64,000 nt of DNA, taken from NCBI RefSeq assembly GCF_014633365.1, contig NC_068348.1, forward strand, positions 11,488,311 through 11,552,310, read 5' to 3'. Both the position numbers and the translations under genes were made by a program. Numbering within the stretch: position 1 is the first letter of the stretch; the number at the start of each line of letters is the position of its first letter. The notes under the pieces are model-generated. The model saw only the letters and a program-made list of their open reading frames with translations, did not search any database and was not told the origin of the DNA. Source of the stretch: Diospyros lotus. Its lineage: Eukaryota; Streptophyta; Magnoliopsida; Ericales; Ebenaceae. Shown one piece after another: positions 4,056 to 26,886 of this stretch.

Positions 4056-4060
4056 ACAAG

Positions 4061-4342
4061 CTAAGTGTCACTGAAGACCATTAGTTGCTTTGCCTTCACC
4101 TTTCTCACTAGGCGTAGTCTTGTCAACAGTGCCTCTTTCTTCGCTTCATTATTGGTCGCTTTAAACCCGAATATCATCACATAGGGAATTTTATGCCCCT
4201 CTGGGATTATTAGGAGTACCCCAGCTCCATCTCCATGCTCGCTAGAAGACCCATCTACATATAATTCCAAGGATGGACCCTTCGAAGATTCGGGCTCTTC
4301 CTCTACTAGGGCTGTGAACTTAGCAATAAAATCTACCAGCAC
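4061..4342 (-). pseudogene. T1 second RNase H (Tat-type)
   Basis: The 93-residue frame contains VDGSS (first catalytic Asp) and NNEAKKEALL, where the RNase H Glu and Ala are recognisable, then FSDT (catalytic Asp). Tat elements carry an additional RNase H domain after the usual Gypsy one, and the position fits. The frame ends at a stop before 4061. Confidence 0.75.
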
Positions 4343-4909: not shown

Positions 4910-5539
4910 CTACTTCAACACATTAAAGAATGGAATACATTTATCAAAGGCTTTAAAGACAAACCTGCTGAGGGCAGCGATCTGGCCATTAAGGCTTTGC
5001 ACCTCCTTTATCCTGGTTACCGATCTCATGTCAAGCAAAGCTCGGATCTTCTCAGGGTTGGCCTCAATCCCCCTTTCATTCACCATGAAGCCCAAGAATT
5101 TCCCAAAAGCTACGCTGAATGAGCACTTGAGCAGATTCAGCCTAATTTGATACTTCCTCAGAATCTGGAACATCTCTTTCAGGTCACGAATATGGTTGAC
5201 AACCTTCTTAGACTTCACCATCATATCATCTACATATACCTCCATGGTTCTCCCAAGCAGGTCCTCGAACATCATATTAACCAGACGCTGGTAGGTTGCT
5301 CCCGCATTCTTCAGCCTGAAAGGCATCACCTTGTAGCAGTATAACCATCGATTTGTGACAAATGAGGTATGCTCTTCATCTTTGGGGTTCATAGGAATTT
5401 GGTTGTACCCCGAATAGGCATCCATGAAACTGAGAAGCTGGTGACTAATCCTTGCATCCACGAGCTAGTTTATTCTTGGCAGAGGGAAATTGTTCTTTGG
5501 GCACACCTTATTCAAATTTGTTGAGTCAACACAGTCCTT
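4910..5539 (-). pseudogene. T1 reverse transcriptase, C-terminal part
   Basis: The 183-residue frame contains FMDAYSGYNQIPM, MPFRLKNAGATYQR and the catalytic YVDD (in EVYVDDMM), then GFMVNERGIEANPEK, typical of Gypsy RT palm and thumb. Homology continues to 5539, where the domain is cut by the LTR of element B. The N-terminal fingers are at 26361-26781. Confidence 0.9.
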
Positions 5540-7121
5540 TGGCTGCACTCTCACCCTGTAATTAAAACACAATAAAACTTTTATATTTTTTTCTTTATTT
5601 TGGTGAGAGGTTTATACTCATCAGTGTACGAGTGCAGTTGTAGTCCAAATTTAAATTTGTATTTTCTGGATAAGTCTAGATCGTCCACTAAGAGATTTAT
5701 TTATGGCAAAAGAAAAAGAATGTCACACACACGTACACGCATTTGGACGAATTGGCAACAAGATTTTTTATGGATTTTCAGATAACGGATACTAGGAAAT
5801 AAAGCAAGGTAGAAGTTGAAATAAACGCTGAATGTGAGAATATGAAATTGATAGCACTTGAGTTAAGACAATTTCAGCACCAACCCGTTGATCCGCAATT
5901 TTTAGCAGAAAAGATTAGCAACATTAATTTAATTTTAGATATGAGGATTTGTTATTAAATGCAATTAGAGATGATGATAGTTCTAGTTTAAGCAATCCCA
6001 TACATGATATGCAGGATTCTAATTTAAGCAACTATCATAAATTCAATTGCAATTAATACACAAAACAACTAAATTAATCATCTGGGTTTGGGTATGATAG
6101 CATTTCCAGTTCTAGTAACTCCCATGTGTGGCATGAAAGCTCTAAGTTAGGCTTACGCTCCAATCCAAACCTAGTTATTTCTCAATAATTAATACACACT
6201 CATACTGAAATTTAAATTAACGTCACTCATTTAAAGCGCAGCTTTCTTTAGGAATCATTAGCGTTGGACACTGTCCTTGCCTTAACCCAAGATTGGATTT
6301 AGCTACTCATCTCTATTTGAAAGTTAATTGATAGGAATTTAAATGGCGTAATTTAAATAATAGAAATTAATTGGCCATTTAGGCGGTGGATAATAAAAAG
6401 ACGTGAACTAAAATTACAGAAATAAAATAGCAGAAATTAACCAGCCATTTAGGTGATGGATAATAAAGTAACGATAAATGACATAAGAATTCAAGAGAAG
6501 AAAGAAAGAAAGTAAGATCACAAGATAAGACAATAGAGAAAAAAAGAGAGAACAAGAGCAATTCTCAAAGAGAAAAATCTAGAAAAACAAACTAAACTTT
6601 GATTCAAGAATAATAATCACTCATTAAAAGTGCAACCAAGTGAGCTATTTATAGCCCACAAGATGCAATACAAACCACACAATTTCAATTATACAACTAG
6701 ACATAATTATATCTAATGGGTACTCACACACCTAAAGTTAAATGGATTTTAGCTAAAATACACACCTAAAGAAGCACTCATAAAACAAATATTTAAAAAT
6801 AAAAATAAAAAGAATAGATTTTTACAAGTTGAGTTTTGGGTCTTCTTTATGTTGGATTTGGGCCTTCCTTGGAATTAAAATGCTTGGGTCTTCTTTGGTT
6901 GGACTCCATTTAATAGTTGATCCAATTGCACTAGATTTTGAGTAGTAACGTTGGCCATCCGATTGACTCTTTAACATCTTCAATTACTCGGCAAATGTCG
7001 ATTTCTTCATATCATCCTAACTATAGTACATAATGTGCATAATTATTCAAATTAAACATTAATATAAGATAAAAAATAGGGATATAATTTATTAAGATTT
7101 AGAAAAATTAACTCCTCATCA
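5540..7121 (-). repeat. 3' LTR of B
   Basis: 1582 bp, aligning throughout with 24702-26360. The plus strand starts TGGCTGCACTC and ends CTCCTCATCA. The 61-residue ORF inside it is not a gene. Confidence 0.9.
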
Positions 7122-8923
7122 GACGCCTTAACTTAAACATTGCTAGTCCCTTAGCAATCAGACTATACACCTTTCAAAATTTATTCGCAATAACTGTATG
7201 AATGTAAATATTTCAAATTCGAAAATAAAATGCATAAAATCAAATAAGTAATTTAGCATTCTAAATCAAATTTTTAGTTAAAGGTCATACAACACAGAGA
7301 CTTATTCCCTCAAAGTTTTGACTTTAAACCTTACTGTGATTTTCCCTGCAATAAAAAGGATTCCTCAAGTGTACACACAAGGGGGTGCGCCGTTATAAGA
7401 GTAAATCTAGAACAAGTTCAAAACTCAGTGTCATCCCAATTACAAGGAATGTATTTTCATTAAAGAACAGGGAAAATGACACAGTTTCATGACTGGAATA
7501 ATGCTTTAGATGAGTAACTTTTGAATTTAAACATAATTCCCTACTCCAAACTCAAATTCTGAGATCACATGATTTATAGCATCAAGAGGGACCAGACCGG
7601 TTGTAATGGGGCTATGAGGTTAATACGAGTTGTCAAAGAAAAGGTAGAGTGTGCAAAGGGTGTGTCGGATTTTTTTTTTCCAGCATTTATTTTGAAATAA
7701 TTATGCTGAATAGGAAAGAGAATTTTTGTTTTTTTTTCACTTTTTTTTAAATATGAAAACAGCTAGATAGAATAATTCCCCAAAACACACCAGGTTGGAC
7801 AAAATTCATATGGTTATGGGTTAAATGAGGGTAATGAAAGAAATTATACTACAAATGGCTCAAATGGGCTAGTAAGGGACGTTAATGTTTAGAAAGAAAA
7901 AGGTTAATAGGCCCAAAATGGAAGAAATTGATCCCCCTATCATGCTTCTACAAGACGATGTTACTTAGTCAACTAATTCAGAGTTTGAAACTAGCCAAAT
8001 TCATCCGCTATCATACTAGACATTCAAGGCGAATTGATGTTTTGAAGCTATTGAAAATATGAGATAAATAATAAAGCACATTTAGAGTAAGTGCTATTTA
8101 ACTAAGAATCAACGTTTATTAGGCTCAAACACTCACTCGGGTAATAGTATCCACTTATGTTTATGGATCATGCAATGTACTAATTAGCTAATTACTGTTA
8201 CCTCTGACTTTATGACTGATAACTAATTTTTAAATTTTGAATACCCGATGAATGCAAATTACTTGTTCTAATGCACATACTTTTTCAAATAAGAAATCAA
8301 TGCATTCATGTTTTGTATTACAAACTTAACTGACTATCAGTGTATAACTCTAAAGCTTTAGGGATAACATTATTTAAAACACACAATTTTTTTTTTAATA
8401 AGAATAGATAAAGATAACCAATTCACACAAAACTACAAACAAGCAATAGCAAATTCATAGTTAAACATGAACCAGATAATTCATAACTAGACCTTACTCC
8501 CCCTAACTTGAATTGCAGTAATAAAATAGGGTTGTTTGAAATACCTGTAACTCCACAAGTCTATAGATTTACTGTGAACTGTTAAAACTCAAACAAACAA
8601 ATGAGTATACCATATATATATTTATTTATTTTTTCACACAAAAATAAAAAAAAATTCATGCAAGTCATAAGATAAACAAAATGCATCTCAAGAGTATAAA
8701 ATATACTCCTTACTCAGCCATCTTATCATAGACTTGCCTAACAACATTTCACAATTTTTTTTAATTATTATTATTATTATTATTATTAGGAACACAACCA
8801 AGAAAAATCCTACAAGTTGTAAAATAAATAGATGCGTCTCAAGAGTACAAAAAGTACTCCTTACTTAGCCATCTTAATAAAGAACACTCCTTACAGTGAT
8901 AAATCTAAATTAATCGGACTCTT
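7122..8923. other. B: non-coding region between LOG ORF and 3' LTR
   Basis: AT-rich sequence without a supported ORF. It includes a two-copy repeat (8655-8893), an (ATT)n microsatellite near 8768-8790 and T runs near 7670 and 7730. A block with ACCTTACTCCCCCTAACTTG near 8492 resembles ACCTTACCCCCCAACTTG near 10824 on the other side of the LOG region. I see no clear polypurine tract next to 7121. Confidence 0.6.
8655..8893. repeat. Two-copy direct repeat, period about 152 bp, 3' of the LOG ORF
   Basis: CATCTCAAGAGTATAAAATATACTCCTTACT near 8682 recurs as CGTCTCAAGAGTACAAAAAGTACTCCTTACT near 8834. Both copies have AGCCATCTTA downstream. Each contains an inverted repeat (GAGTA...TACTC) that could form a short hairpin in the transcript. 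Confidence 0.75.
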
Positions 8924-9550
8924 TTAGCGCTTGTTACTGACTGCCTTAAACCAGTTTATTCGAGCCTCATGAGGATTGTGTTGTGGAACATAAGCATGTA
9001 ATTTCTCTAGCAGCTCCTTAATGGTGGATGCGAGAATGAGAATCTTTCTTGTTGAAAGAGAAATGAACTTTTGGTCCACAACTTGATAAAAAAAAGAGAG
9101 CAACCCATCGAAAAAATGGTTAACATTTAAAAGTACAATGAGTTTGGTATGGAGATTACTCTTGGCCCATGAGATTATACAAAAGATTTCTTTAAGTGTT
9201 CCAAAACCTCCAGGTAAAGTAATGAAGGCATCTGACTGATAAATCTTACAAGTCATGCGCTCAGACATAGAATTCGTTTCTATAAGTTGGCCGCGTGTAA
9301 TCCCAAAAATATGTGGTTCAGCCAAAGAGATTGGCATTACACCTACTAGATATGATTTTCCAAAATGTGCAGCTTGTGAAACGCAACCATTCAATCCATG
9401 ACTTCCCCCTCCGTATACCAAATTAATTTTTCGCTTTCCCAATTTTAGGCTAAGTTCGCTTGCTACAAGTGCGTAACAACTATCGCTCCCAAGTTGAGAG
9501 CCATAAAGTACACATATGGTATTGATTCGACGAACTAATTGGCCTTCCAT
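8924..9550 (-). CDS. LOG-family cytokinin riboside 5'-monophosphate phosphoribohydrolase, captured in B
   Basis: Uninterrupted 208-residue ORF from ATG at 9550 to TAA at 8924. LOG enzymes cleave cytokinin nucleoside 5'-monophosphates to the active free base plus ribose 5-phosphate, in cytosol and nucleus. Seen here: ICVLYGS near residue 12, NLVYGGGSHGLNG at 43-55, SERM with Arg98, and PGGFGTLKE at 113-121. The latter two cover the phosphoribosyl-binding and catalytic region, with the expected Arg and Glu present. The usual Lys after that Arg is Met and several flanking residues are unusual, so activity is uncertain. Length matches plant LOGs, but plant LOG genes have several introns and this one has none, which suggests capture as RNA. 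Strand matches B pol. Two uncharacterised ORFs lie upstream. Confidence 0.85.
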   Translation of the reverse strand: MEGQLVRRINTICVLYGSQLGSDSCYALVASELSLKLGKRKINLVYGGGSHGLNGCVSQAAHFGKSYLVGVMPISLAEPHIFGITRGQLIETNSMSERMTCKIYQSDAFITLPGGFGTLKEIFCIISWAKSNLHTKLIVLLNVNHFFDGLLSFFYQVVDQKFISLSTRKILILASTIKELLEKLHAYVPQHNPHEARINWFKAVSNKR

Positions 9551-9721
9551 TTACGTTTGTTCCTTATGTATGCCTTGGAAAGAGGTTTAACGATCAAAAG
9601 TAGCTATACAAAAATTCAATAAGAAATAAATACAAACAAAAATCATGCGTATGTACAAGTAGTTGTGATTGTGGCTCACATCTTCCTCTGGTTTTATGTC
9701 TAGAAATGACTTAAACACTTT
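9551..9721 (-). other. Spacer between upstream ORF and LOG ORF
   Basis: 171 bp with stops in the LOG frame. It is the immediate leader of the LOG ORF if the region is transcribed on the minus strand. Confidence 0.4.
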
Positions 9722-9967
9722 CTATGAAGTGGGGATAGGCTTCCCATCCAATTTTCTTATAGATTGACAAACAGCGTCATTTTTAGTCAGATTCCCAAGA
9801 CTATAGTGTTGGTGGTCACTTATAAACTGGGTCCATAAAGCAAGAAGTTCTCTTTGCACTATTCCACATGGATGCATCTCAAGAGTCAATTGTGACAACC
9901 ATTGACGTAAACCCCACAGATTTGCATCGTGTGTTACAGGTCCAACGAGCACATTTGTGACAACCAT
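9722..9967 (-). CDS. Uncharacterised ORF upstream of LOG (second part)
   Basis: 81 codons ending at 9722. The product has Trp and hydrophobic residues spread as in a folded protein and no membrane segment. It overlaps the 3' end of the ORF at 10211-9879 in a +1 relation, so the two may be one gene with a one-base frameshift. No family recognised. It shares strand and frame with the LOG ORF, 171 bp further on. Confidence 0.4.
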   Translation of the reverse strand: MVVTNVLVGPVTHDANLWGLRQWLSQLTLEMHPCGIVQRELLALWTQFISDHQHYSLGNLTKNDAVCQSIRKLDGKPIPTS

Positions 9968-10211
9968 TCACTCTTTTCGCTCTTCGTTTCTTCGCAAAAC
10001 TACTCTTCCCTAAGCCTGAAAAGTGCTTAAAACTAGGTGAAGTTTCGCTAGCTAATTGAACTTTTGCTTCGATCAGCCAACGAATATCTTCAGTGATGTT
10101 ATTACGCATCAACAGCCTAAGTCTTTCACACCTAGTGGCATAAATTTTTTTCAAATCATTCTGTGGGAGAGATGGATAATACTTGCGAATTTTTGAGAGT
10201 TGAAGATCCAT
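9879..10211 (-). CDS. Uncharacterised basic ORF upstream of LOG (first part)
   Basis: 110 codons. The ATG at 10211 follows a run of about 12 A on the minus strand. The product is rich in Lys and Arg, has KKRRAKR near residue 75 (nuclear-localisation-like) and a few Cys and His near the end. No family recognised. Homology of this stretch to Athila env-like ORFs is not evident. It may be a captured host fragment or the 5' part of the frameshifted gene continued at 9967-9722. Confidence 0.4.
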   Translation of the reverse strand: MDLQLSKIRKYYPSLPQNDLKKIYATRCERLRLLMRNNITEDIRWLIEAKVQLASETSPSFKHFSGLGKSSFAKKRRAKRVNGCHKCARWTCNTRCKSVGFTSMVVTIDS

Positions 10212-10299
10212 TTTTTTTTTTTAAAACAACTATAATAAAAAGAAAGTAAAGAACTATGAACCTTACAAAAGGGATAAGAGTACCTGATCGGAGAATAAC

Positions 10300-10550
10300 A
10301 CAAAGGAGAGAAGACTGAGCTCAAAGAAGTGTGGCTTGCCTTATGTAGATACGGGATCTCTTATAGGGCAATGGAAGTTATCATTCCAACAACCACACTT
10401 GGCTCAAGGCGTGCCACGAGTGTAGGGTCACGTCTGGCGTCTCTTTTTTCAACATTTGGCTTTTCTTTTTTCAACGTTTGGCGCCTCCTTTTTCAATATT
10501 TGGCAGTGTGCCTCTTTCTTTATAGGGCAGTGTGATTGCACTGCCCGAGA
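10300..10550 (-). promoter_or_regulatory. Candidate promoter for the ORF cluster ending in LOG
   Basis: On the minus strand two TATA-like elements occur in similar contexts: CCCTATAAAG (near 10518-10526) and CCCTATAAGAG (near 10357-10367). Between them are three near-copies of a unit like GCCAAACGTTGAAAAAAG (10444-10507 region). A perfect 8-bp inverted repeat, GGGCAGTG/CACTGCCC with a 6-base loop, lies at about 10525-10546. A CT-rich stretch follows the second TATA, as at many plant transcription starts. Inferred from sequence only. Confidence 0.4.
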
Positions 10551-11189
10551 AAAATGGTTACCACCAGCGTCAATTTTGTCTCCCTCTTTTCTCTCTCAAA
10601 AATATATATATATTTATTTTTTTATTATATATTCTTATTGTTATATTTTTTTTAAATTTTATTATACTATTTATTATTATTATTATTTAATTTTTTTATT
10701 TTTTAATATATATATTTTAGGGGCCCAATAAAATCATATATACTACACAAGATAATATTATAAAGTCAAACAAAATTATTTACAAAATGGATTAAATTCA
10801 AATGCCAATAAATTCTTAAGTACACCTTACCCCCCAACTTGAATTGCACATTGTCCTCAATCAGCAATAAAATGATAGAAAATAGGCATACCTGGTGGTC
10901 TTCAATGCATCAACTCGTATGCAAAAAGATTTGTTTAGACTGCACACAGAGAAACACTATTTGAGTCAAAGTTAATTAACTAATGCAAAATATGAACAAT
11001 TTATATATATATATATATTCATATATTTCCTTTTTTTTTTTTTAATGTCCCAGATCCAGAGATATCCATTTAACCTAAATGGAAAGGTGGTATTTTAATG
11101 TCAGATTTCCAAACGACACGAAACTTCCCTTACTCATTAGATGATGGTGGATCATCCAAATCCACAACTCCTTCATTCTCCTCAACACT
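10551..11189. other. B: AT-rich non-coding region between candidate promoter and integrase end
   Basis: Long A/T stretches at 10595-10735, a (TA)n run near 11001-11016 and the block ACCTTACCCCCCAACTTG at 10824. No ORF supported. Confidence 0.6.
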
Positions 11190-12400
11190 ACCCTAGTATG
11201 GTTTCAACCTATGACCATTGACTATAAGACGTTGTCTTGACACTAGATTTTCTATCTCAAAGGCCCCATATTCTAAGATGGACTTGATTACAAAGGGGCT
11301 GACTCATCGAGACTTCAATTTTCTTTAGAATAGATGCAATCGAGAATCGTACAAAAGTACTGTTGCCCTACTTGAAAGCTTTTCCGAATGATGTGCCGAT
11401 CATGCAACTCTTTCATGCGAAGCTTGGTCAATCGTGCATTTTCAAATGCCTTGTTATGAATTTCTTCGAGCTCATTCAATTGGAGCTTCCTAGAGAGGCC
11501 TACTTCAGTTAGACTCTTGTTGATCTTTTGAATTGCTCAATATGCTTTATGCTCAATTTCCACCGGCAGATGATAAGATTTACCGTATACTAGCCTATAG
11601 GGAGATATTCTTAAAATCATTTTGTAAGCTGTCTTGTACGCCGAAAGAGCGTCTACTAGTCTTAAGGACCAATACTTACGATTAGCAACAATAGTCTTTT
11701 TCAATATGGCTTAATCTCCCTATCGGCTAACTTAGCTTAACCATTGGTTTGGGGATTGTATGGTGTTGTAACCTTGTGTAGTACACCATATTTCTTCATT
11801 AGTTCTGCCACAACTTTATTATAAAAATGGGAACCCCCATCACTAATGATTACTCGTGGCATCCCAAATTGACTGAATATGTTTTCTTTCAAAAATTTCA
11901 CTACAGTCCTATGGTCATTTGTTCTGGCCGGATCACTTTGACCCATTTAGACACATAGTCAACAGCAAGTAAGATGTATTCATGACCAAATAAATTGATA
12001 AATGGGCCCATAAAATCCATACCCCAACAGTCAAAGACTTCTAACACTTGGATTAGATGTAATGGCATCATGTTTCTCCTCAATAGACTTCCTAACATTT
12101 GACATCGATCGCAACTTGAACAGAACTTGTACAAATCCTTAAACAGTGTCAGCCAATAAAATGCACTTTAAAAAATTTTTGCAACTGCTTTCTTGATAGA
12201 AAAATGGCCTCCACATGCAAGAGTGTGACAAAAATTAATGACACTCTGTTGCTCATGATCGGGTATGCATCGACAGATAATTTGGTCAGGACAATATTTG
12301 AACAAGTACGGGTCATCCCTAAGAATGTCACCACCTTCCGAAAGTTTTTTTGCTTGTCTAGCCTAGACTAGTGATCTGGAATCTGTCTAGTGACTAGATA
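11190..12400 (-). pseudogene. B integrase (degenerate)
   Basis: Minus-strand frames show a zinc-binding region ending CDRCQ (near 12095), the core with CWGMDFMGPF (near 12020) and IISDGGSHF (near 11840), and PYNPQTNG at 11737. The next codon is TAA, and the catalytic Glu position right after it reads Lys. A C-terminal domain with many stops extends to about 11190. The copy is inactive. Confidence 0.8.
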
Positions 12401-12502
12401 ATTTTCTATGTCAGCATACCATGGAAGGATAGGTGATGTAGATTGACTACTTATTTGAAATAATTGTTCATCTGGAAAGGAATCATGGATTGGGCTCTCA
12501 AA
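12401..12502 (-). pseudogene. B linker between RNase H and integrase
   Basis: Short degenerate coding stretch joining the two domains. No intact frame. Confidence 0.4.
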
Positions 12503-13900
12503 CTAATTTAGCTCTTGACATGGTAGACGAGACAAATGGTCAGCCACCACATTTTCTACCCCTTTTTTATCTCTTATTTCAATGTGAAATTCTTGCAAAA
12601 GTAAGATCCATCGGAGGAGACAGGGTTTTGCATCTTGCTTTGTGAACAAATACTTCAGAGCAGCGTGATCGGTAAAAATGATCACTAGTGACCCTACGAG
12701 GTAAGATCGGAACTTGTCTAGGGCAAAGACAACTACTAGTAACTCTTTCTCTATAGTGGTGTAATTCTTTTGCACCTCATTAAGAGTTTTGCTAGCATAG
12801 TATATCACATGAGGTTTCTTATCCTTCCTCTGCCATAACATAGCTCCTACCACATAATCACTAGCATCGCACATAAGTTCAAATGTGAGGGACCAATCAG
12901 GGGATTGAATGATAGGTGCTGAAATGAGTGCATCTTTCAATTTATCAAAAGCATTTTGACAGCCAAGAGTCCATTCAAATGGAACATCTTCAAACAACAA
13001 ATGGCACAAGGGCCTTGTTATGGTGTCAAAGGAAGTAATGAATCTCCCATAAAACCCTGCATGTCCTAAAAAACTTCTGAAGTCTTTCACATTCCTAGGA
13101 GTGGGGAGTTTTTGAATGGTTTCAATTTTTGACCTGTCTACCTCCATCCCCTTAGATGAAACGATGTGCCCTAAGACTATGCCCTGTTTCACCATGAAGT
13201 GACACTTTTCCCAGTTGAGTATCAGATTTGTTTCCTCACATCTTGCTAAAACCTTTTTCAGATTCTCTAAACATGGCTCAAAGTTACTTCCATAAACAGA
13301 AACGTCATCCATGAATACTTCAACAATCTGCTCAACCATTTCACTAAAAATGCTCATCATACACCTTTGAAAGGTGGCTAGAGCATTGCATAACCCAAAT
13401 GGCATGCGCCTATATGAAAATGTCCCAAATGGACATGTGAAAGTAGTCTTCTCTTTATCTTCTAGTGCAATTTCTATCTGATCATACCTTGAGTACCCAT
13501 CTAAGAAGTAATAGTAGGCTTAGTCTACTATTCTCTCCAGAACTTAATCCAAGAAAGGTAGAGGAAAATGATCTTTCCTTGTCACAGAATTGAGATTTCT
13601 ATAATCAATGCACATACGCCATCCTGTTTGGATGCGCATGGGAATCAACTCATTGTTCTCATTTTTTACAACAATGACTCCAGACTTTTTTGGTACTACC
13701 TGAGTTGGACTTACCCACTTAGAATCAAAGATTGGGTAAATTATTTCAGCATCCAATAGCTTAAACACTTCTTTTCTAATAACTTCTTTCATGTTGGGAT
13801 TTAATCTCCTTCGCATTTGCCTAACTAGTTCTGCTCCTTCTTCCAAGAATATCTTATGAGTACAGATCAAAGGGCTAATACCTTGCAAATCTGAAATGGT
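12503..13900 (-). pseudogene. B reverse transcriptase and RNase H (Athila type)
   Basis: The N-terminal RT segment (13888-13544) has KSGVIVV and GWRMCIDYRNLNSVT. After stops near 13540 the frame 13405-12503 (300 residues) gives [14 protein letters not shown], the catalytic loop [22 protein letters not shown] and the connection domain. The RNase H follows with [32 protein letters not shown] and [10 protein letters not shown], ending [13 protein letters not shown] instead of YVDD is usual in this lineage. The stops between the parts inactivate it. Confidence 0.9.
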
Positions 13901-14119
13901 CCATCCTAATGACTTCCTATGTGTTTTCAGAACTTCTATCAGTTGTTGCTCTTACTGAGGTGTCAAACTAGAAGAGATCACCATTGGGAATGCTTCCCCT
14001 TCTCATAGAAAGACATACCTCAAATTACTGGGCAATGACTTTTTCTCAAGCATGGAGTGATGGCTATCAGAAGTCGTGAGCTTACTGTCCAAGTTCCCTA
14101 ATGGCTCTAAACTAGGCAT
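13901..14119 (-). pseudogene. B protease-RT linker
   Basis: Degenerate coding sequence with stops between protease and RT. No conserved motif recognised. Confidence 0.4.
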
Positions 14120-14625
14120 TCATGTAGGCTTCTCACTCTCTTTACCTATGACTTTCATTTCTCTTATTTCCTCAAGATCTTGATTTCCTTCTTTGGGTCT
14201 TCTCATGAACTCTTCAAAATAATAATTGGTTAGTGTTTGGATCAAGTCTACCTCCTCCACTTCACTCTCAGTGTCCTGATGTTTGGCTACCCTAAAGACA
14301 TTCATTTCTACAGTCATGTTCCCAAAAGATAGCTTCAACATAGCATTCCTACAATTGATGATAGCATTTAATGTTGCTAAGAACGGTCTACCCAAGATGA
14401 CAGGAACAGGAGGTTGAGGACCCTGATGAGGCTGGGTATCCAACACTATGAAATCTACTGGAAAGTAGAACTTGTCCACTTGGACCAATACATCCTCAAC
14501 TATTCCTCTAGGGACTTTGACTGACCTATCTGCCAACTGTAGAGTGACTCTTGTAGGCTTCAATTATCCTAGACCCAATTATTGATAAACACTGTATGGC
14601 AATAGAATAACACTAGCTCCTAGGT
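14120..14625 (-). pseudogene. B aspartic protease (Athila type)
   Basis: The active-site motif DLGAS is read at about 14622-14608. After one stop the frame 14563-14120 gives VTLQLADRSVKVPRGIVEDV and PVILGRPFLATLNAIINC, diagnostic of Athila proteases. The tail is acidic and leads to RT. The ORF is interrupted near 14575. Confidence 0.85.
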
Positions 14626-15615
14626 CTCAAAGTGCTTGATCAACTTTCTGGCTTCCTATGATGCATGAAATGGTTAGATAACTTGGATCTTTATATTTGG
14701 GAGGGGTTTTGAATTGTAGGATATAACTGACCTGTTCAGTTAGAAATGCTTTTTCATGCACATTTATTTTTCCTTTTACAGTACAGAGGCCTTTCAAGAA
14801 ATTTAGCATATGAAGGTGTTTGTTTTATTGCATCCAAAAGTGGAATGTTGATTCTTACTTGCTTAAACACTTCATATATATCTACATTTTGTTGCTCTTT
14901 TTTCAAATCATTCAACCTTTGTGGAAAATGTGATTTGGGTCTGTATTGAATGTCTTTCCCTAGAATGTTATTACATTTCCCATCTTCTTTTTATTTTTCA
15001 TTTTTTCATTTTTCTCCACGATGGGTTCACGATCTTTTGGTTCTTCCTCTTCAGCAGCAGGTCGGTTTATCCTAGGATAAGTTGATTTTTCAATTATTCT
15101 TCCACTTCTTAGGGCAGTCACTGCTTGCACTTGTTCATGAGTGTTGGTTTTACTATTTGAAGGTTCTACCTGGTTGGTTTGCCTAATTGGGTTAGGATTA
15201 GTTTGGGACGAAAACCTTCCGGGTTCTCTCACACTCAATGTTTGTGTTAAGTTGGTCAACTGGCTCCTAATGTCTTCTATGGCTCTGTTTGTTTGCTCTT
15301 GAGTTTTGGAAACTTGATTATTGATTCCTGTTTGGCTTTGGATGAATTGATGCAGAGTATCATCTAAAGGTCTCCTATGAGGTGGCTGGTAAGTGTTGGA
15401 TGAGGAACCGTGATTTGGTTGGAAAGTTTGTTGTGTAGGGAAGGGTGGCTGAGAATGATTTGCAGAATCATTTCTCCAAAAAAAATTTGGGTGGTTTCTA
15501 TTGTTGGGATGATATGAGTTGTAATTTTGGTTATGCCCGTAATAGTTTCCCCCTTGATTTTGGTTTTGCCAACCCTCAAAATTGTGTGGATGTGTATTAT
15601 TTGTTTGCCCATACA
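14626..15615 (-). pseudogene. B gag, C-terminal part
   Basis: The 218-codon frame 15616-14960 is rich in Asn, Gln and Pro, with NNRNHPNFFWRN and VTALRSGR, typical of the Athila gag tail. Degenerate coding sequence linking to protease follows to 14626 (frame 14809-14627). At 15616 the gag is interrupted by L1 and continues at 23597. Confidence 0.8.
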
Positions 15616-15620
15616 ATTCC

Positions 15621-18030
15621 TGTAACGCTCCACTTTTCCAAATACGTAATAACTTGAAATATAATTAAGACATCACCTACGGGCGTTATGAAAACCCTTA
15701 CCAACGGAAGCATTGGATCGAACCTGCAAGCTTAATCAAAGCTAAATGAAGGGGTTTCCACTAGATTTCATTTCCAAGTACAAGAAATGTAAAAGACTCA
15801 ATAGTCCAGAAGGACACAACCTATTAATGTAATATAACTGTAGGGCATCATTTTATTACAAACTCTGAGTACCCTAGCTGCTATTCACAATATATTATTT
15901 TGGTTACAAGGGTACAAAATGAATCCAAGATCCCAAAGCTAGCAAAGCTCCACCTCCTTGCTCACGCTTTAACTTGGAACCTGTAACGCTTGATACTTCT
16001 GATAAAGCTGGGACGATGAATGCCCCGGGGGTAAGAAACACCCGAGTTAGATTATTACATCTAAGTGAGTGGTAAGAAAGAAAGAAACAGTGCATGCAAG
16101 AGTAATATGCAGCTTTGCCAAGAGACATGTAGAAATAAGAACAAAATCTCCCAAGATCACAGCTCACCGCAAGAGCACAAGATCCCCTGTGATACCCCAA
16201 CAAATAGCGACAAATACAAATACCGAGATGCATGTGCAATAGGCAAGATTTGCTCAAAAGCAACAAACACATGAGATGTAACCTCTCGGCCCCCTTACAC
16301 AGGCACAAGATATCCTCCTTACTTCCCATGTATGAACCCCTCAGCCCCCTTACACAAGCTCGAGGTAGCCCCCTTACACAGGCCCAGGTGGTTAGCCCCC
16401 TTACACAGGCCCCCGTGGTAGTTCACACATGACAAGCCACCAACTAGCCACAACCACCAAATGACAATATGTATGACAAAGCAGAAGGAATATGATCACA
16501 AGCCACGCACGAAAGATGTTATGGTCAAACTTGATACAACAAAGTAGAAAGGATATGCTTGAACAAAAGGAACATAAGACGTAAGCAACAAACCATCCAC
16601 AAGTGAAAACCAAAAGTGATCAATAGGAATACGAATCACTCACAAATGAAACCAAGAATGATCAAGAGGAAGCATGCACGAGAACCACTCACCTTCGATA
16701 GCACGGTTTATAGCCCGATTTCGTGCACTAGGGGATGTTTCTACAGAAATCATGCATTTAAGTGAATCAAACCTTAAATATTTTTACACAGGGTTGTAGG
16801 TAATTAAAATAGGAGAACAACGGTAAAAATTTCAGGCCAATCGGAGGCTGAATGCGACCTCACGTGCCCCCGGAAGGGTGGCCACGCGCTGCCCTTTCTC
16901 TATTTTGCAACCCAAAATTAAAATGGCCATATCTTGCTCATTTTAACTTTGATTTGCTCTCCATTTGAACCTACGGACTTCTATTTTCATGCTCTACGAT
17001 CCTATAGAAAGAAAATTAGCTTAACTCTTCGAATTCCCTTCTTTTTTGGCAGTTTTCCAGCCAGGTCTCTCTTTCCTTTCTTCTTTGGTTTTTCTTTGAT
17101 TTTTCTTGCACTTCCTTTCTTTCCTTTCTCCTTAGCTTCTCGTGGCCTTAATTCCTTCCATTTATATAGCCTTTAAATGCCCAAATCCTCAAGATTTCAC
17201 TTGGCCTCCAAGTTACTTATTTTTCACCCAAATAATCATCACACTTTGAAATTTTTGCAATCTTCTCAAGCAAGCCTCCACTTCTTCCAATCCTAGGCCT
17301 CCAAATATACCTTTAAGATAAGCTCCATCATCTCCTTCCTTTGCAAGCTAATTCCTAGCCAGTCCTAATCTTCCAAGTTTAGACTTTAGGATAAAAATCA
17401 ATCATTGCAATCTTTGATTTTGATTTCATCTTCTCCTTCAAGCCTTTACTTCCTTCCAATCAATCTCCCCTTCATGTGGCTTTCATGATAAGAACACTCA
17501 AAGACCCTTATCTCTTCTCTTCCAAGCCACTCATAGCCATCCAACTCATGCCACTTAAGACTTTTGGGGTAAAAATCCATCATTACAACCTTTGAATATT
17601 TCCTACTTTGATTCTATCTTCCAAAGCAAGCTTCTCCTTTCTTCCAATCTTAAACCTCCAAATACTCCTTCACGTGGCTTTAGGATAAGCTCCATTATCC
17701 TCTTCTTTTTCAAGCCAACACAAGTCTTCCAAATTAAGTCTTCCAAGTTAAGTCTTCCAAGTTTCATTACTTTTGACTTTAAGGTGAGAGTGATTATTGT
17801 TATCACCAAAGCTTTAAGACTTTTAAGTTAACCCTCCAATCCAATTTCTCCAACTCAAAGCTTCTTAAATAAGCATTTATCATTGCAATATTCTTATTGT
17901 TGGAGAAGTTATCCTTTGATATTTGCATTTAGTTCCCTAAAACCATTTCCATTTACACTTAAATCCAAAACTTCCATTAAAACACTTTATTACATCACCC
18001 AACCTTTCCATTAAATTTTGGGGTATTACA
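15621..18030 (-). repeat. 3' LTR of L1
   Basis: Plus strand begins TGTAACGCTCC and ends GGGGTATTACA. It contains five short repeats of the type AGCCCCCTTACACAGGC at 16280-16420. The ORFs in it match those of the other LTR and are not genes. Confidence 0.95.
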
Positions 18031-18046
18031 TCCCCCCCCCCCTTAA
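18031..18046 (-). other. Polypurine tract of L1
   Basis: A run of 11 G preceded by AA on the minus strand, directly before the 3' LTR. Confidence 0.85.
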
Positions 18047-21000
18047 AATAAATTTTGTCCCCAAAATTTCCTTCATAACTCACTTAGAATCTATTTCCCG
18101 AAGCAAATTCCTCAATATGGTGTCTCCCGAACACTTTCTTGGCATGCCCCGATCAATATGGTTTTCCTTAACTCTTGGCTTAAGGCACACATTTTAACTT
18201 AGAAATCAAAATGTTTCGTCCGAAAATCAATATCAAGGGTTTTGACCCTTTCCCAATTGTCAACTCATGACTATACCTTCGAGTCTTTTAGAATAGCTTT
18301 TCAAATCTATTCATCAGATGAGAGTGAATCGCTAGGCTAGCGACGTAAATAGATATTCCATCAGGAATTACATCCAATGCCATAGGCTAAAAAGCCTTCA
18401 CCAGTCCCCCACTCTCAGGTCAATAGAACAGGCTCATTCCGGCATTAACCACCACGTTCACCTAGAATAAGCTATTAGAGCAGGCCCGTTAGCCACCACG
18501 TTCATTTTCCTGAGATGGTACTAGATCACACAACCACAACCCTTCAAAAACTCTATCCACTGTCGTTATCCTGCATTCAAATCCCTCTGAAAGAACAGGC
18601 TCCTCAAGCAATCATGAAGACCTCGAACTTTTCACATAGTGCTACCATCGCACGCTCACTACTGCATCAATATCCACATCAACAAGGGCAGAGTTCGGGA
18701 TAATCAAATCAGAGCCAATTGCTCACAATAGCTGGGGTGTATAATAATTCGCACACTAAATCGAAGGTTAGGTCAGTAACCAGAATAAATCTCCCTTCCC
18801 AAGGCCAAATCTGGGGAACACACATATCCCCATGCTCACTATCTTGGGAAACACACTTTCCTAAGCAAGCCCATACCACACACATGCCTACACTGGGAAG
18901 CATTCCACCCATGGTTATGACCTACCCCGACCTATGTATGCAATCACAGTTCCACCACCCCTTTCCCAAACCTCCAAATTTCCAATCCCACTTAGCACAC
19001 AATGCAGTAGTCATGACTCCTGGCACCCTCTCTGACTTACTTTCAAACCCATAAGGGTTAGCCAACTCAAATGGCATTATAATGTCCACCATAGGTCTCC
19101 TGAAAAGGATAGCCTAAACCCTTTGGACAATCCCGGGCTTGCAGCCACCCATTTTCCTCAAGTATAACACTCTTTGGCCTCCCGTTTGGCCCCAACCAAG
19201 TTTCCAAACTTGCAAGACTTTCCAAAATAAAATAACTGGGATAGTTACCTTTTGGTTTGAAGTTTCCTTCCTCAGATTCCCAGGCCACGTCTTGTCCCAA
19301 GCCTCGGGCACTTCTTACCAAACCTTTATCAGGTTAGTAACCTCAATTCTCAAAATTTTGAAGCCATTAGATACATGCAAAACATTTCCAACGAACCGTG
19401 AATCAAACATCCTCAAAGTCTAGTTAGTCTCCCCAATAGTCTCCAACTATCCACAATCAACTGGTAAATCGTAACCTAAGAACCATAGGATTTCCAGGAT
19501 TCTTTGCGAGTCTATTTGACCGTCAACCCTAGGTTATCATCACCCAAATATCCTCAAGATTGATATAAGAATTACTAGACTTATCTCAAGTCCATAATCA
19601 TTGGTCCCGAATTCCAAAATGTCTAGAATCCTCCAGATTCCAAATTTATCAAGTTCCTGCAAAATAGTCGTTACACAGGATTCTAACGAACCACATATAT
19701 ATGTATCTCCAAGACCCAATAGGTCCCCCAAACACTTATTATCAAAACTCCTCGAAGCAATAGAAATAGTGGAGAATTCTCCAATGGTCATTGCCAAACT
19801 CCTGCAATACATAATCATTAATACGAGATTCTAGCAAACCATAAATAAAAATGTCTCCCAATTCCTCATCTCCTCAAGGTTCTCATTACTGGCTAGCTCA
19901 AAATGGTTTGGGTCCTATGTGTGGTTGCCTAAGGCATAACCTATCCACATGTCCCATTCCACAGATCGTACCCAGACTTTAGATTATCGCGTGTCTCCCT
20001 TACGTGTACCATTTCAATCAAATCATCATGATCATATAACGACCATCCATCTTTGATCTTTCGCCTGACCCAATCACTTAACAAGGTTAGTATCCTCAAA
20101 TCACTTAACATTTAATAAAACCTTAAATGAAGCCTTATCCAATTTTTTCCTAAAATCCAATGAGTCACCCAAAATAATAGCAAAAATGAGGTTTAGTCCA
20201 CCACACAATTAGAGTACTTACTTGTATCACACACCCAACTTACATACTCATTAGATTCTACCAATGACCGTCTATACCTCTCAAATGGTTCCATGACCTA
20301 CCCTGTCATCAAAGTTCAAGGATTAATAACATCAGGTATATACCATAACGTTTCATACCACCGTTTCATCTTCCAAGATCCTCAAAGGTAAGCCATGTAA
20401 CTTAACCTTTTACCAAGGATTCCCAAAGGTTAGTATCACTCGGTAACTATCACATCTCCTGCCGTTGCTTATCCCATAAATACACATAAACATAAAGCAA
20501 CAACCCATCACACCCATTAAATCTTCAAATTGGCACAAGGTCCCATGGACCAATATTAACAAATCTCCCAAAGCACAAAATAATTAAACCACCAGACAAA
20601 ATAGGATACTTGCATTTCATTCCAACTTACTCACTCACTGAATTACCTTGATCAACGTGTAACCTATCTTGTCATCAAAACTCAAGATTAGTAAGACTAA
20701 CATAACACCAAGCATACCTCAAGATACCACATACCACTATTGTGATTACCAAGAATATCCTCTAGTAACACGTAACCTATTCTGCCATCAAGGCTCCTCA
20801 ACGGTTAGTAACATTTGTCAACATCATAATCATCATATACTATCCGTTTCAATTATACATAGACCATTTCCTTGTGTACATACACATAATCCTCAGTCTC
20901 GTAAAAATAGAAATAACAATCATTCTTCATGTTCATCTACGAGTCCCATCATGCCCCCTGGCCAAAGTACCCACAATATTAGACATGTCAATCTAGATCA

Positions 21001-21165
21001 AGACCATACTCAATATTAAACCCAAACCTGAATCCAACCCTTCTTGTGCAACGTTCCTTAGTCTCGCAAAATCATTCCTCTTTGGTTACAAATCCACTCC
21101 TATCATAGATCAAAACATCCTCAAGGTTACTCAACTCAAATCTTAAATTAAAACCACAAATTCTA
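18047..21165 (-). other. L1 interior: non-coding, conserved with L2
   Basis: No retroviral domain in any frame and no ORF above 120 codons. The 5' end (21165-21060) is homologous to 52564-52640 of L2. The 3' part (about 18750-18280) is homologous to 63560-63950 on the plus strand. A degenerate motif TACTAACC...TTGATGACAGG recurs several times, for example near 20830, 20690, 20440 and 20320 (minus). Presumably the interior keeps packaging or cis signals. Confidence 0.7.
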
Positions 21166-21178
21166 GCTCTGATACCAA
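21166..21178 (-). other. Primer binding site of L1
   Basis: The minus strand reads TTGGTATCAGAGC, matching the 3' end of initiator tRNA-Met, one base inside the 5' LTR border. Confidence 0.92.
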
Positions 21179-21179
21179 C

Positions 21180-23591
21180 TGTAATGCCCCAATTTTCCAA
21201 ATACGCAATAACTTGAAATATAATTAAGACATCACATATGGGCGTTATGAAAACCCTTACCAACAGAAGCATTGGATCGAACCTCCAAGCTTAATCAAAG
21301 CTAAATGAAGGGGTTTCCACTAGATTTCATTTCCAAGTACAAGAAATGTAAAAGACTCTCAATAGTCCAGAATGACACAACCTATTAATGTAGTATAACT
21401 GTAGGGCATCATTTTATTACAAACTCTGAGTACCCTAGCTTATATTCACAAGATATTATTTTGGTTACAAAGGTACAAAATGAATCCAAGATCCCAAAGC
21501 TAGCAAAGCTCCACCTCCTTGCTCACGCTTTAACCTGGAACCTGTAACGCTTGATACTTCTAATAAAGCTGGGACGATGAATGCCCCAGGGGTAAGAAAC
21601 ACCCGAGTTAGATTATTACATCTAAGTGAGTGGTAAGAAAGAAAGAAACAGTGCATGCAAGAGTAATATGCAACTTTGCCAAGAGACATGTAGAAATAAG
21701 AACAAAATCTCCCAAGATCACAGCTCACCGCAAGACTACGAGATCCCCTATGATACCCCAACAAATAGTCACAAATACAAATACCGAGATGCATGTGCAA
21801 TAGGCAAGATTTGCTCAAAAGCAACAAACACATGAGATGTAACCTCTCGGCCCCCTTACACAGGCACGAGATATCCTCCTTACTTGCCATGTATGAACCC
21901 CTCAGCCCCCTTACACAAGCTCGAGGTAGCCCCCTTACATAGGCCCACGTGATTAACCCCCTTACACAGGCCCCCGTGGTAGTTCACACATGACAAGCCA
22001 CTAACTAGCCACAGCCACCAAATGACAATATGTATGACAAAGTAGAAGGCATATGATCACAAGCCACGCACAAAAGATGTTATGGTCAAGCTCGATGCAA
22101 CAAAGTAGAAAGGATATGCTTGAACAAAAGGAACATAAGACGTAAGCAATAAAGCATCCACAAGTGAAAACCAAAAGTGATCAATAGGAATACGAATCAC
22201 TCACAAATGAAACCAAGAATGATCAAGAGGAAGCATGCACGAGAACCACTCACCTTCGATAGCACGGTTTATAGCCCGGTTTCATGCACTAGGGGATGTT
22301 TATGTAGAAATCATGCATTTAAGTGAATCAAACCTTAAATATTTTTACACAGGGTTGTAGGTAATTAAAATAGGAGAACAACGCTGAAAATTTCAGGCCA
22401 ATCGGAGGCCGGATGCGGCCTCATGTTCCCCCGGAAGGGTGGCCACGCGCTGCCCCTTCTCTATTTTGCAACCCAAAATTAAAACGGCTATATCTTGCTC
22501 ATTTTAACTTCGATTTTCTCTCCGTTTGAACCTACGGACTCCTATTTTCATTCTCTACGATCCTATCGGAAGAAAATTAGCCTACCTCTTCGAATTCCCT
22601 TCTTTTTTGGTAGTTTTCCAGCCAGGTCTCTCTTTCCTTTCTTCTTTGGTTTTTCTTTGATTTTTCTTGCACTTCCTTTCTTTCCTTTCTCCTTGGCTTC
22701 TCGTGGCCTTAATTCCTTCCATTTATATAGCCTTTAAATGCCCAAATCCTCAAGATTTTACTTGGCCTCCAAGTTACTTATTTTTCACCCAAATAATCAT
22801 CACACTTTGAAATTTTTGCAATCTTCTCAAGCAAGCCTCCACTTCTTCCAATCCTAGGCCGCCAAATAGACCTTTAAGATAAGCTCCATCATCTCCTTCG
22901 TTTACAAGCTAATTCCTAGCCAATTCTAATCTTCCAATTTTAGACTTTAGGATAAAAATCAATCATTGCAATCTTTGATTTTGATTTCATCTTCTCCTTC
23001 AAGCCTTTAGTTCCTTCCAATCAATCTCCCCTTCACGTGGCTTTCATGATAAGAACACTCAAAGACCCTTATCTCTTCTCTTCCAAGCCACTCATAGCCT
23101 TCCAACTCATGCCATTTAAGACTTTTGGGGTAAAAATCCATCATTACAACCTTTGAATATTTCCTACTTTGATTCTATCTTCCAAAGCAAGCTTCTCCTT
23201 TCTTCCAATCTTAAACCACCAAATACTCCTTCACGTGGCTTTAGGATAAGCTCCATTATCCTCTTCTTTTGCAAGCCAACACAAGTCTTCCAAATTAAGT
23301 CTTCGAAGTCAAGTCTTCCAAGTTTCATTACTTTTGACTTTAAGGTGAGAGTGATTATTGTTATCACCAAAGCTTTAAGACTTTTAAGTTAACCCTCCAA
23401 TCCAATTTCTCCAACTCAAAGATTCTTAAATAAGCATTTATCATTGCAATATTCTTATTGTTGGAGAAGTTATCCTTTGATATTTGCATTTAGGTCCTTA
23501 AAACCATTTCCATTTACACTTAAATCCAAAACTTCCATTAAAACACTTTATTGCATCACCCAACCTTTATATTAAATTTTGGGGTATTACA
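21180..23591 (-). repeat. 5' LTR of L1
   Basis: Near-identical partner of 15621-18030. Plus strand begins TGTAATGCCCC and ends GGGGTATTACA. Confidence 0.95.
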
Positions 23592-23596
23592 ATTCC

Positions 23597-24582
23597 TCTT
23601 TGAAAGCAAGCAATGTAAGACATTCCTCAGTCTTGTACTCTGTTGTGTCACAAACTGCACATTTTACTTCCACTTGATTAACAAACTATGTTCCCTTGGT
23701 TTCTAGACTTTCAATCTTTCTTGTCAAGGTAGCTATCCTAGCATTCAGATCATCACTTTCACTCAGTTGGTACCTACCTTTAGACTGTAGATTTTCTCTT
23801 GAGTCATTAGAAGATATTAGTCTAACCTCCCAGTTTCTAGTGTTTTCTGCTAAGGTATTAAAGAACTGGAATGCTTCATCTAAAGTCTTATCATAAAACT
23901 CACCATTACACATGGTGGACACTAACATTTTCAATTAAGGACTAAGAGCATCATGAAAGAAATTGACCACTCTCCATTGTTCAAAAGCATGGTGTGGGCA
24001 AGCATGGAGAAGGTCCTTAAACCTCTCCCAAGTTTAAGCAAAGTTCTCATTGGGTTTGCACACAAAATTCATAATCTGTCTCTGAAGGGTGGCAACCCTA
24101 TTGGCTGGGAAATATTTTTTCAAAAATGTCATTTGCATTTCCCTCTAGGTTCCTATGGACCTAGGTGGAAGAGTGCTCGACCACATCTTAGCCTTATCCT
24201 TGAGTGAAAAAGGGAAGAGCTTTAATCTTATGACATCTTCATTCACTGTATGATCCATACAGGTGCTACACACTTCCTCAAACTCTTTCATATGGGTGTG
24301 TGGGTTTTCAAAATCCATGCCATGGAAAGTTGGCAACAATTGAATGGTGTCAGGCTTGAAATTAAACCTAGGATGGTTGATGGGAAGAATAATGCATAAG
24401 GGAGTTGTCTGCCTAAGAGGATGAAGATACTCCCTAAGGGGTCTGATCATTTCCTGATCGATGGGATCATGGTCACCGTGGTCACTACCATGTGCAGACA
24501 TATTAGGTGCAAGTTGCAAGCTCTCGTTGTGTTGAGACATGAGTGATTGATATTCTACAATCCTACCTAACCTAAGTATCAT
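23597..24582 (-). pseudogene. B gag, N-terminal part
   Basis: The frame 24582-24145 starts with MSQHNESL (Met near 24540 is the likelier start), then PLREYLHPLRQTTP, LLPTFHGMDFENPHTHMKEF and LKLFPFSLKDKAKMW, typical of Athila capsid. Frameshifts follow near 24145. A second frame (23934-23686) covers FFNTLAENTRNWE. Interrupted by L1 at 23592. Gag would form virus-like particles. Confidence 0.85.
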
Positions 24583-24679
24583 ACACCATGTACAAAAGTA
24601 AAGGAAAAAGAAATAGAGTTACCGAATTTATCAAGAGATGCTTATTCTTATTTTTTTCTTTTTGTTTTTGCCTTAATCT
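24583..24679 (-). other. B 5' leader between PBS and gag
   Basis: Short AT-rich untranslated leader. No feature seen. Confidence 0.5.
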
Positions 24680-24700
24680 TCCCTGCAATGGCGCCAAAAT
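24680..24700 (-). other. Primer binding site of B
   Basis: Directly downstream of the 5' LTR in element orientation, the minus strand reads TTGGCGCCATTGCAGGG, the TGGCGCC-type tRNA primer site found in Athila elements. Confidence 0.8.
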
Positions 24701-24701
24701 T

Positions 24702-26360
24702 TGGCTGCACTCTCACCCTTGCAATTAAAACACAATAAAAAGAAACACAATAAAACTTTTATATTTTTTTCTTTATTTTGGTGAGAGGTTTATACTCATC
24801 AGTGTACGAGTGCAGTTGTAGTCCAAATTTAAATTTGTATTTTCTGGATGAGTCCAGGTTGTCCATTGAGAGATTTATTTATGGCAAAAGAAAAAGAATG
24901 TCACACACACACACGCATTTGAACGAATTGGCAACAAGATTTTTTATGGATTTTCAGATAACGGATACTAGGAAATAAAGCAATGCAGAAGTTGAAATAA
25001 ATGCTGAATGTGAGAATATGAAATTGGATAGCACTTAAGTTAAGACAATTTCAGCACTAACCCATTGATGCCTAATTTTTTGCAAAAAAGATTAGCAACA
25101 TTAATTTAATTTTAAATATGAGGGTTTGTTATTAAATGTAATTAGAGATGATGATAATTATAGTTTAAGCAATCCCCATACATGATATACGGGATTCTAA
25201 TTTAAGCAACTACCATAAATCTAATTGCAATTAATACACAAAACAACTGAATTAATCATCTGGGTTTGGATATGATAGCGTTTCCAGTTCTAGTAACTCC
25301 CATGCGTGGCATGAAAGTTCTAAGTTGGACTTACGTTCCAATCCAAATCTAGTGATTTCTCAATAATTAATACATACTCATACTGAAATTTAAATTAATG
25401 TCACTCATTTAAAACGCAACTTTCTTTGAGAATTATTGGCGTTGGACACTGTCCTTATCTTAACCCAAGAATAGATTTAGCTACTCATCTCTATTTCAAA
25501 GTTAATTGACAGGAATTTAAATGGTGTAATTTAAATAATAGAATTTAAATTACAGGAATTAAAATAACAGAAATTAACCGACCATTTAGGTAATGGATAA
25601 TAAAAAGACATGAATTAAAATTGCAAAAATAAAATAACAGAAATTAACCGGCCATTTAGGCGGTGGATAATAAAGTAACAATAAATGACATAAAAATTCA
25701 AGAGAAGAAAGAAAGAAAGTAAGATTACAAGAGAAGACAATAGAGAAAACAAGAGAGAACAAGAGTGATTCTCAAAGAGAAAATCTAAGAAAATAACTAA
25801 GTTTTGATTCAAGAATAATAATCACTCCTTACAAGTGCAACCAAGTGAACTATTTATAGCCCACAAGATGCAATACAAACCACACAATTTCAATTATACA
25901 ACTAGACATAATTATATCTAATGGGCACTCACACACCTAAAGTTAAATGAATTTTAGCTAAAATACACACCTAAAGTTAAATGGATTTTAGGTAAAAGAC
26001 GCACCTAAAGAAGCACTCATAAAACAAATATTTAAAAATAAAAATAAAAAAAATAAATTTTTACAAGTTGGGTTTTGGGTCTTTTTTATGTTGGATTTGG
26101 GCCTTCCTTGGAATTAAAATGCTTGGGCTTTCTTTGGTTGGACTCTATTTAATAGTTAACCCAATTGCACTAGATTTTTAGTAGTAATGTTGACCATCCA
26201 ATTGACTCTTTAACATCTTCAATTACTCGGTAAATGTCAATTTCTTCATATCAACCTGACAGTAGTACATAATGTGCATAATTATTCAAATTAAACATTA
26301 ATATAAGATAAAAAATAAGGATATAATTTATTAAGATTTAGAAAAATTAACTCCTCATCA
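24702..26360 (-). repeat. 5' LTR of B
   Basis: 1659 bp. It matches the left copy with substitutions and small indels, including extra copies of short motifs such as CACCTAAAGTTAAATG near 25935-25985. Confidence 0.9.
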
Positions 26361-26781: not shown

Positions 26782-26886
26782 TCCCTTTTCACTTATGACT
26801 CGTGGCCCCCCTTAAGAGACAACATTGACTTTCTTTCCTTTGAACCCCATTTTTAATGCCTCTTCATAGCAACATCTCCCTGAATA

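Follow-up and report, generated by a model that had tools for sequence, protein, structure and literature searches.

A window of 64,000 nucleotides from Diospyros lotus (contig NC_068348.1, positions 11,488,311 to 11,552,310) contains a gene for a LOG-type cytokinin-activating enzyme inside an Athila-like long terminal repeat (LTR) retrotransposon, raising the question of whether a plant hormone gene has become part of a mobile element or landed in one by chance. The reading favoured here, with a probability of roughly 0.6, is that LOG and a neighbouring gene for a viral-type cysteine-rich protein (CRP) are accessory genes of the element, such that LOG from a spliced message would release cytokinin while the CRP would dampen silencing and/or act in the nucleus. 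As the first-pass annotation of this DNA had described, the minus strand from 9550 to 8924 holds an intronless, uninterrupted frame of 208 codons, running from Met to stop, with the motifs YGGGSHGLNG and PGGFGTLKE. Residues 56-184 matched Pfam family PF03641 (E=6.9e-28; 97.9 bits for a cut-off of 27) and residues 8-200 matched the Arabidopsis LOG structures 2a33 and 1ydh (1.5e-43 and 1.4e-39, respectively). The PGGxGTxxE motif (i.e. P113-E121) and the preceding arginine (i.e. R98), which have a role in LOG catalysis, were both retained, with R98 and E121 being invariant or nearly invariant among aligned relatives. A confident structure model (predicted local distance difference test, pLDDT, of 88) exhibited an alpha/beta fold. 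The frame is thus a LOG-type protein with the PF03641 domain and core motifs kept and with putative enzyme activity. The gene has the same orientation as pol, is located between pol and the 3' LTR, and lacks introns as claimed, whereas ten cellular LOG loci of the D. lotus genome are split into exons.

Further copies were sought in the host genome, as the first-pass annotation had suggested, and were abundant. A six-frame search of 630 Mb with the window LOG protein produced 1112 candidates, of which the best 150 were scored; a second LOG query produced 927, again with the best 150 scored. Such best-match lists favour intact copies. Combined, the two lists contained at least 275 distinct LOG copies, distributed over C1 to C16, and stops were reported for 20 of these. 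All 150 copies of the first list covered at least residues 1-207 and 17 contained a stop; for the second list, stops refer to the matched part only. The reverse transcriptase (RT) of the window was also used as a query, with 119 of 13,915 candidates scored, 63 of them in open frames of at least 1800 aa. For 56 of the 119 scored RT copies, a same-strand LOG was listed at a distance of 3,493-4,376 bases downstream; within 15 kb, six had a listed LOG upstream and one had a LOG on the opposite strand. Downstream LOGs were listed for 37 of the 63 elements with a gag-pol frame of at least 1800 aa, and reading of the expected site in five of the other 26 revealed LOG in 5/5, one with a stop.

Both LTRs were read in three LOG-bearing copies besides that of the window. 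A copy on C8 (LOG near 42,281,200) had a gag-pol frame of 1873 aa, a target-site duplication (TSD) of GGCGA and LTRs with five mismatches over 1939 aligned bases (99.7% identity). A 10-kb copy at C10:2858416-2868415 had identical LTRs (1978/1978), a TSD of CCGCT, a gag fragment, CRP and LOG; RT and protease matches were looked for in this copy and none was found. The near-identical LTRs indicate that one pol-bearing and one pol-less LOG carrier inserted recently. The second C8 copy (LOG at 15,713,796), whose LTRs share 95.5% identity across 1629 aligned bases, contained a gag fragment, a CRP with one stop and LOG, and no RT was detected in it besides a weak 46-residue match (2e-4). An internal direct repeat with a spacing of 413 bases was observed in pol-less copy L033:7043-7650. 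With hundreds of copies listed, most of them open, LOG seems to serve the Athila-like family as a functional component and not to be a stray passenger; that the element captured a LOG transcript and spread it, as originally proposed, is most simply so in view of the copies and their linkage to pol. The intronless and decaying state of the window LOG is also what would be expected if a host LOG had given rise to a processed pseudogene that landed in the element by chance. A pseudogene unique to this locus was ruled out by the copy number, by the constant position behind pol in pol-bearing copies and by a tree in which the frame stands apart from five host LOGs, leaving this explanation with next to no probability.

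Selection was assessed on 60 LOG frames (i.e. 59 copies plus the window; L017, with a 12-base deletion, and the broken L075 were left out) assigned to three groups, A, B and C. Mean ratios of nonsynonymous to synonymous substitution rates (dN/dS) between groups were 0.317 for A-B, 0.266 for A-C and 0.342 for B-C, with values of 0.27 and 0.36 within A and B and a ratio of 0.35 for group A singletons. A stop was present in 10 of the 60 frames, the window among them. Full-length ungapped CRP frames from 53 of 61 loci gave 0.36, 0.29 and 0.35 for A-B, A-C and B-C, respectively, and 0.35-0.44 within groups. The LOG-bearing family is under constraint in the sampled copies, unlike the window copy. 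Several points weigh against this constraint: LOG dN/dS reached 0.48 within group C, whose singletons were near neutral (0.78); CRP values were 0.43-0.44 within A and C; a sample of best matches may bias dN/dS downward; and the CRP-LOG spacer diverged less between A and C than LOG itself (0.046 as compared to 0.080), so that it provides no neutral yardstick. This yardstick may be blurred by recombination or by conservation of an RNA signal.

The window copy behaved differently. Its LOG exhibited dN/dS values of 0.59, 0.39 and 0.44 relative to groups A, B and C, and a premature stop removes the last 11 codons present in relatives, with the tail still readable behind it. Private changes, scored only at codons where the majorities of the three groups agree, comprised 20 nonsynonymous changes and one stop versus eight synonymous changes (ratio 0.76; P = 0.66 versus neutrality). 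Neutral simulation from the LTR divergence (K=0.071) predicted 0.65-0.71 stops per 219 codons, with a probability of 0.48-0.52 for none, and ~5.7 stops in a pol-sized frame. Because of these simulated numbers, the contrast of open LOG and broken pol, previously taken as a sign of constraint or recent capture, needs no selection at the window copy. Constraint on the window LOG was rejected, its private changes being neutral-like and its openness being the chance expectation; this copy is old and decaying, with a truncated LOG, a frameshifted CRP and private changes that fit neutrality. The dN/dS comparison proposed by the first-pass annotation divides, with constraint between subfamilies (0.27-0.34) and none in the private changes of this copy. 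Neutral evolution of the window copy and the group C singletons would also be expected of a LOG that was caught once and copied along as a neutral passenger of successful elements. Such a passenger is quite improbable given the between-subfamily ratios, the presence of LOG in the 37 listed and all five read elements with an 1800-aa frame, its persistence in two copies without pol, and the single group with a shared tail across plant orders.

Immediately upstream of LOG lies the CRP gene, which the first-pass annotation did not mention. It was present in 61 of 61 loci examined, mostly starting ~713 bases before LOG, and was full-length and open in 43; where pol was present in these loci, the CRP and LOG cassette sat behind it. 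The L033 CRP matched PF05515 (2.7e-8; 34.5 bits) and PF01623 (7.1e-5; 23.1 bits), both above cut-off, whilst the window remnant matched PF01623 (E=2.5e-6; 27.8 bits, cut-off 20.9) and scored 19.9 bits for PF05515, under the cut-off of 23. As in the CRPs of carlaviruses, allexiviruses and mandariviruses, a basic KKRRAK stretch is followed by a cysteine cluster of the PF05515/PF01623 type; the Diospyros protein differs in being longer (181 aa), in its CX2CX4CX3C arrangement and in being encoded by a retrotransposon. Four points weigh against a viral-type identity: the L031 CRP passed only the PF05515 cut-off, so that one of two scanned copies meets only one cut-off; the resemblance to viral families reached E-values of only 1e-3 to 1e-8; the structure model was poor (predicted template modelling score, pTM, of 0.32); and the cysteine spacing presumably differs from that of carlaviruses. 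Viral CRPs suppress RNA silencing and, in the available text of PMC12172455, that of chrysanthemum virus B is also a transcription factor that causes hyperplasia.

A predicted splice acceptor, consisting of a pyrimidine tract plus AG, precedes the LOG start codon by 20-odd bases in 57 of the 61 other loci, a count that is weak evidence because these loci share descent; such an acceptor is what a spliced subgenomic message would need. In the CRP-LOG spacer (upstream of 9550, minus strand), block GTAAAACCAGAGGAAGATGTGAGCCACAATCA follows the CRP stop codon and was almost invariant in 12 rows (i.e. 11 loci and the window), and Orobanche P0324 reads on into a similar peptide, SEEDVSHNHN; this hints at a CRP that extends further or at an RNA signal under conservation. 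A CRP profile search of a protein database found 749 relatives. The 120 listed included named relatives from Orobanche, Populus, Xanthoceras, Rhamnella and Acer and two unnamed clusters of 315 and 566 members. Four Orobanche gracilis proteins (P0191, P0263, P0269 and P0318) fuse the CRP to a LOG domain, and a Diospyros prediction, P0080, joins integrase, CRP and LOG domains. With chromosome-sized contigs and LOG fragment clusters P0009, P0012, P0014, P0018, P0023 and P0052 left out, equal-sized contigs were common to LOG and CRP protein clusters for 3 of 14 LOG clusters on contigs of >2000 bases (null mean 0.09, maximum 1) and for 7 of 47 overall (null mean 1.9, maximum 5), which is suggestive only as a sign of linkage. 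A scan of viral contigs gave no match with the CRP profile and one match, of 25 residues, with the LOG profile. P0003 (84% to the window LOG) and P0213 (91% to the L033 CRP) derive from short contigs similar in sequence to the Diospyros family and might be transcripts.

The age of the capture was addressed with a LOG tree of 61 rows and arbitrary root, in which 37 rows were labelled retro-type (outside Diospyros, from sequence alone). All 37 (Diospyros, Orobanche, Rehmannia, Paulownia, Reevesia, Diplodiscus, Populus and unnamed sources) fell on one side of a branch with 100/98 support, and two Xanthoceras LOGs stood next to them (98/97 for all 39). None of the 19 cellular LOGs, among them five Diospyros genes (five of the ten intron-split loci, the other five being left out of the tree), fell within these rows; bacterial rows and P0019 were on long branches. 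The window frame grouped with the retro-type LOGs, and a tree including host genes therefore does not depict it as a simple recent pseudogene. Because the type is common to several eudicot orders and groups apart from cellular LOGs, the capture looks old, and the recent capture in Diospyros that had been envisaged was rejected. The simplest history would be that a spliced LOG transcript was captured once, long ago; a single capture before the eudicot orders split, or a capture then horizontal spread, would both fit. Against extending the element to these plants, direct evidence that a retro-type LOG is part of an LTR element comes from Diospyros only. Spread among plants by horizontal transfer, in place of descent from one old capture, is somewhat unlikely: Reevesia falls with Lamiales and away from Diplodiscus, both genera being Malvales, and some Diospyros copies are young, but long branches separate the sampled plant groups.

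Retro-type LOGs also possess a distinctive C-terminal tail. Of the 137 retro-type LOGs with a length of 205 aa or more, 85 terminate exactly in LxLxL, the EAR corepressor motif, as compared to 0/18 cellular LOGs, and a dibasic pair precedes the tail end in 121/137 and 3/18, respectively. Rows were sorted by best BLAST match to reference rows, Xanthoceras-like tails were counted as retro-type, and the counts include many nearly identical rows contributed by a small number of species, Reevesia and Orobanche among them. This basic and LxLxL tail is the ground for an alternative in which LOG was recruited beyond cytokinin release, for example to act together with corepressors of the TOPLESS type in the nucleus. 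That role is unlikely, as the LOG core motifs are kept, 7 of 10 Orobanche sequences inspected end in FLSL instead of LxLxL, and related rows were counted repeatedly.

The claim that no described Athila family carries LOG did not survive, LOG domains having already been printed for Citrus and Populus Gypsy elements; the available text of PMC9289625 assigns a YgdH/LOG domain to consensus Gypsy sequences from two species of Citrus and, once a filter was switched off, from Populus trichocarpa, and cites Steinbauerova 2011. Those Ty3/Gypsy elements resemble the Diospyros family in being of plant origin and encoding a LOG-type domain, and are presented in that text as consensus domain hits with no LOG copy number, selection, origin, tail or partner given (PMC9289625). 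The Diospyros family differs in its many listed copies, its CRP partner, a group that extends over several orders and its pol-less derivatives. The abstract of the 2011 study reportedly describes two Athila-like elements similar to LOGL4. A Phalaenopsis Gypsy element is comparable in that a host-type enzyme (2-ODD/AlkB) was captured as an extra open reading frame and kept through replication; according to the available text this enzyme is an RNA demethylase active in vitro (PMC9289625), whereas that of Diospyros is of a hormone-activating type by sequence and has a viral-type partner. Within one open-licence library, no publication came up that describes the CRP-LOG module, the number of LOG copies, the ancient group that several orders share, the C-terminal tail or the carriers without pol, nor, judged by title and abstract start, one about a retrotransposon with a viral CRP.

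The features of the window element are collected in Table 1. LOG-bearing elements have a Gypsy-type RT-RNaseH, TG..CA LTRs and a 5-bp TSD; in the window the duplications, TCCTT at 5535-5539 and TCCTC at 26361-26365, agree at 4/5 bases. The gag-pol is broken as first stated, being scattered over several frames and interrupted by the nested 8-kb LTR element. The gag remnant frame (14960-15664) matched gag-like frames of L033 (3e-43) and L031 (8e-22) and gave no Pfam match above cut-off. The name Athila rests on the first-pass annotation, on the resemblance of the RT and on the primer binding site, which putatively corresponds to tRNA-Asp. The Athila ORF-1 domain PF03078 had no match among 14 frames scanned, none of which was an intact gag-pol. 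This domain occurs in only 16% of Athila elements (PMC6317226, available text) and is hence not lineage-defining, and a positional trait considered for the lineage, described in PMC7264820, is not unique to Athila.

Table 1. Positions of the LOG-bearing element, its genes and associated insertions in the window
Feature	Position	Strand	Basis and remarks
LOG gene (cytokinin riboside 5'-monophosphate phosphoribohydrolase type)	8924..9550	-	208 codons, 11 codons short relative to relatives; Pfam, structure-sequence matches, model
Former C-terminal tail, KSPINLDLSL then stop	8891..8923	-	In-frame reading beyond the premature stop
Predicted 3' splice site AG, 23 bases before the LOG ATG	9574..9575	-	Pyrimidine tract and AG; prediction
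CRP gene remnant (viral nucleic-acid-binding type)	9879..10211	-	Frameshifted after ~104 residues; aligned to intact 181-aa copies
RT-RNaseH in two broken frames	12503..13951	-	13544-13951 by position and sequence only; 12503-13519 with PF17917, PF17919, PF00078
gag remnant frame	14960..15664	-	Open frame on pol strand; position and composition; matches gag-like frames of relatives
LOG-bearing Athila-like LTR element, ~12.8 kb without nested insert	5540..26360	-	LTR pair, near-matching TSDs, host-element frames on both sides
5' LTR	24702..26360	-	93.4% identical to 3' LTR over aligned bases, K=0.071
3' LTR	5540..7121	-	LTR pair
Primer binding site TGGCGCCATTGCAGGGAA	24679..24696	-	Three differences from TGGCGCCGTTGCCGGGGA in two young copies
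Nested LTR element in gag-pol region	15621..23591		8 kb; 2.4-kb LTRs 96.3% identical; TSD ATTCC on both sides
Outer Gypsy element, RT gene split by LOG-bearing element	2560-5534 and 26366-27363	-	Reading frames on both flanks

The insertions are stacked, the outer Gypsy element holding the LOG-bearing element, which in turn holds the nested LTR element. Elsewhere in the window, a Gypsy integrase-like frame (35857-36552) is followed directly by a 48-base tandem array of 19-22 units (36755-37803), both strands of which contain long open frames that overlap. Similar-looking 50-base tandem repeats occur far apart at 27844-28109 and 50839-50974 and are possibly the LTR pair of one element. Two copies of ~96-121 bases, each ending in long C runs, are located at 4577-4818.

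With LOG and CRP as accessory genes, LOG would be translated from a spliced element transcript and would free active cytokinin in cells expressing the element; the cytokinin would keep these cells dividing and meristem-like, allowing new insertions to reach the germ line, while the CRP, like its viral counterparts, would dampen RNA silencing and/or act in the nucleus. A wider proposal is offered only tentatively: an old retrotransposon lineage may carry a two-gene host-manipulation module (i.e. a virus-type silencing suppressor and a cytokinin-activating enzyme to which a nuclear or corepressor-type tail was added) that holds cells dividing, weakly silenced and germ-line-competent, with the pol-less derivatives that keep the module being a plant counterpart of oncogene-carrying defective retroviruses. 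Acute transforming retroviruses similarly caught a host growth-related gene that is carried also by pol-less derivatives; the LOG element differs in being a plant element with a capture that looks old, in having LOG in a pol-bearing family and in there being no evidence of disease or infection.

To our knowledge, no mobile DNA besides the Agrobacterium T-DNA has been shown to change the hormone supply of a plant host. The viral-type partner makes the purpose of extra 3' genes in plant retrotransposons directly testable. If the LOGs are active, a fruit-tree genome would contain hundreds of mobile cytokinin-activating genes, such that insertions could shift cytokinin status; the same would apply to parasitic broomrapes, as annotated proteins suggest, and the element would be able to act directly on meristems.
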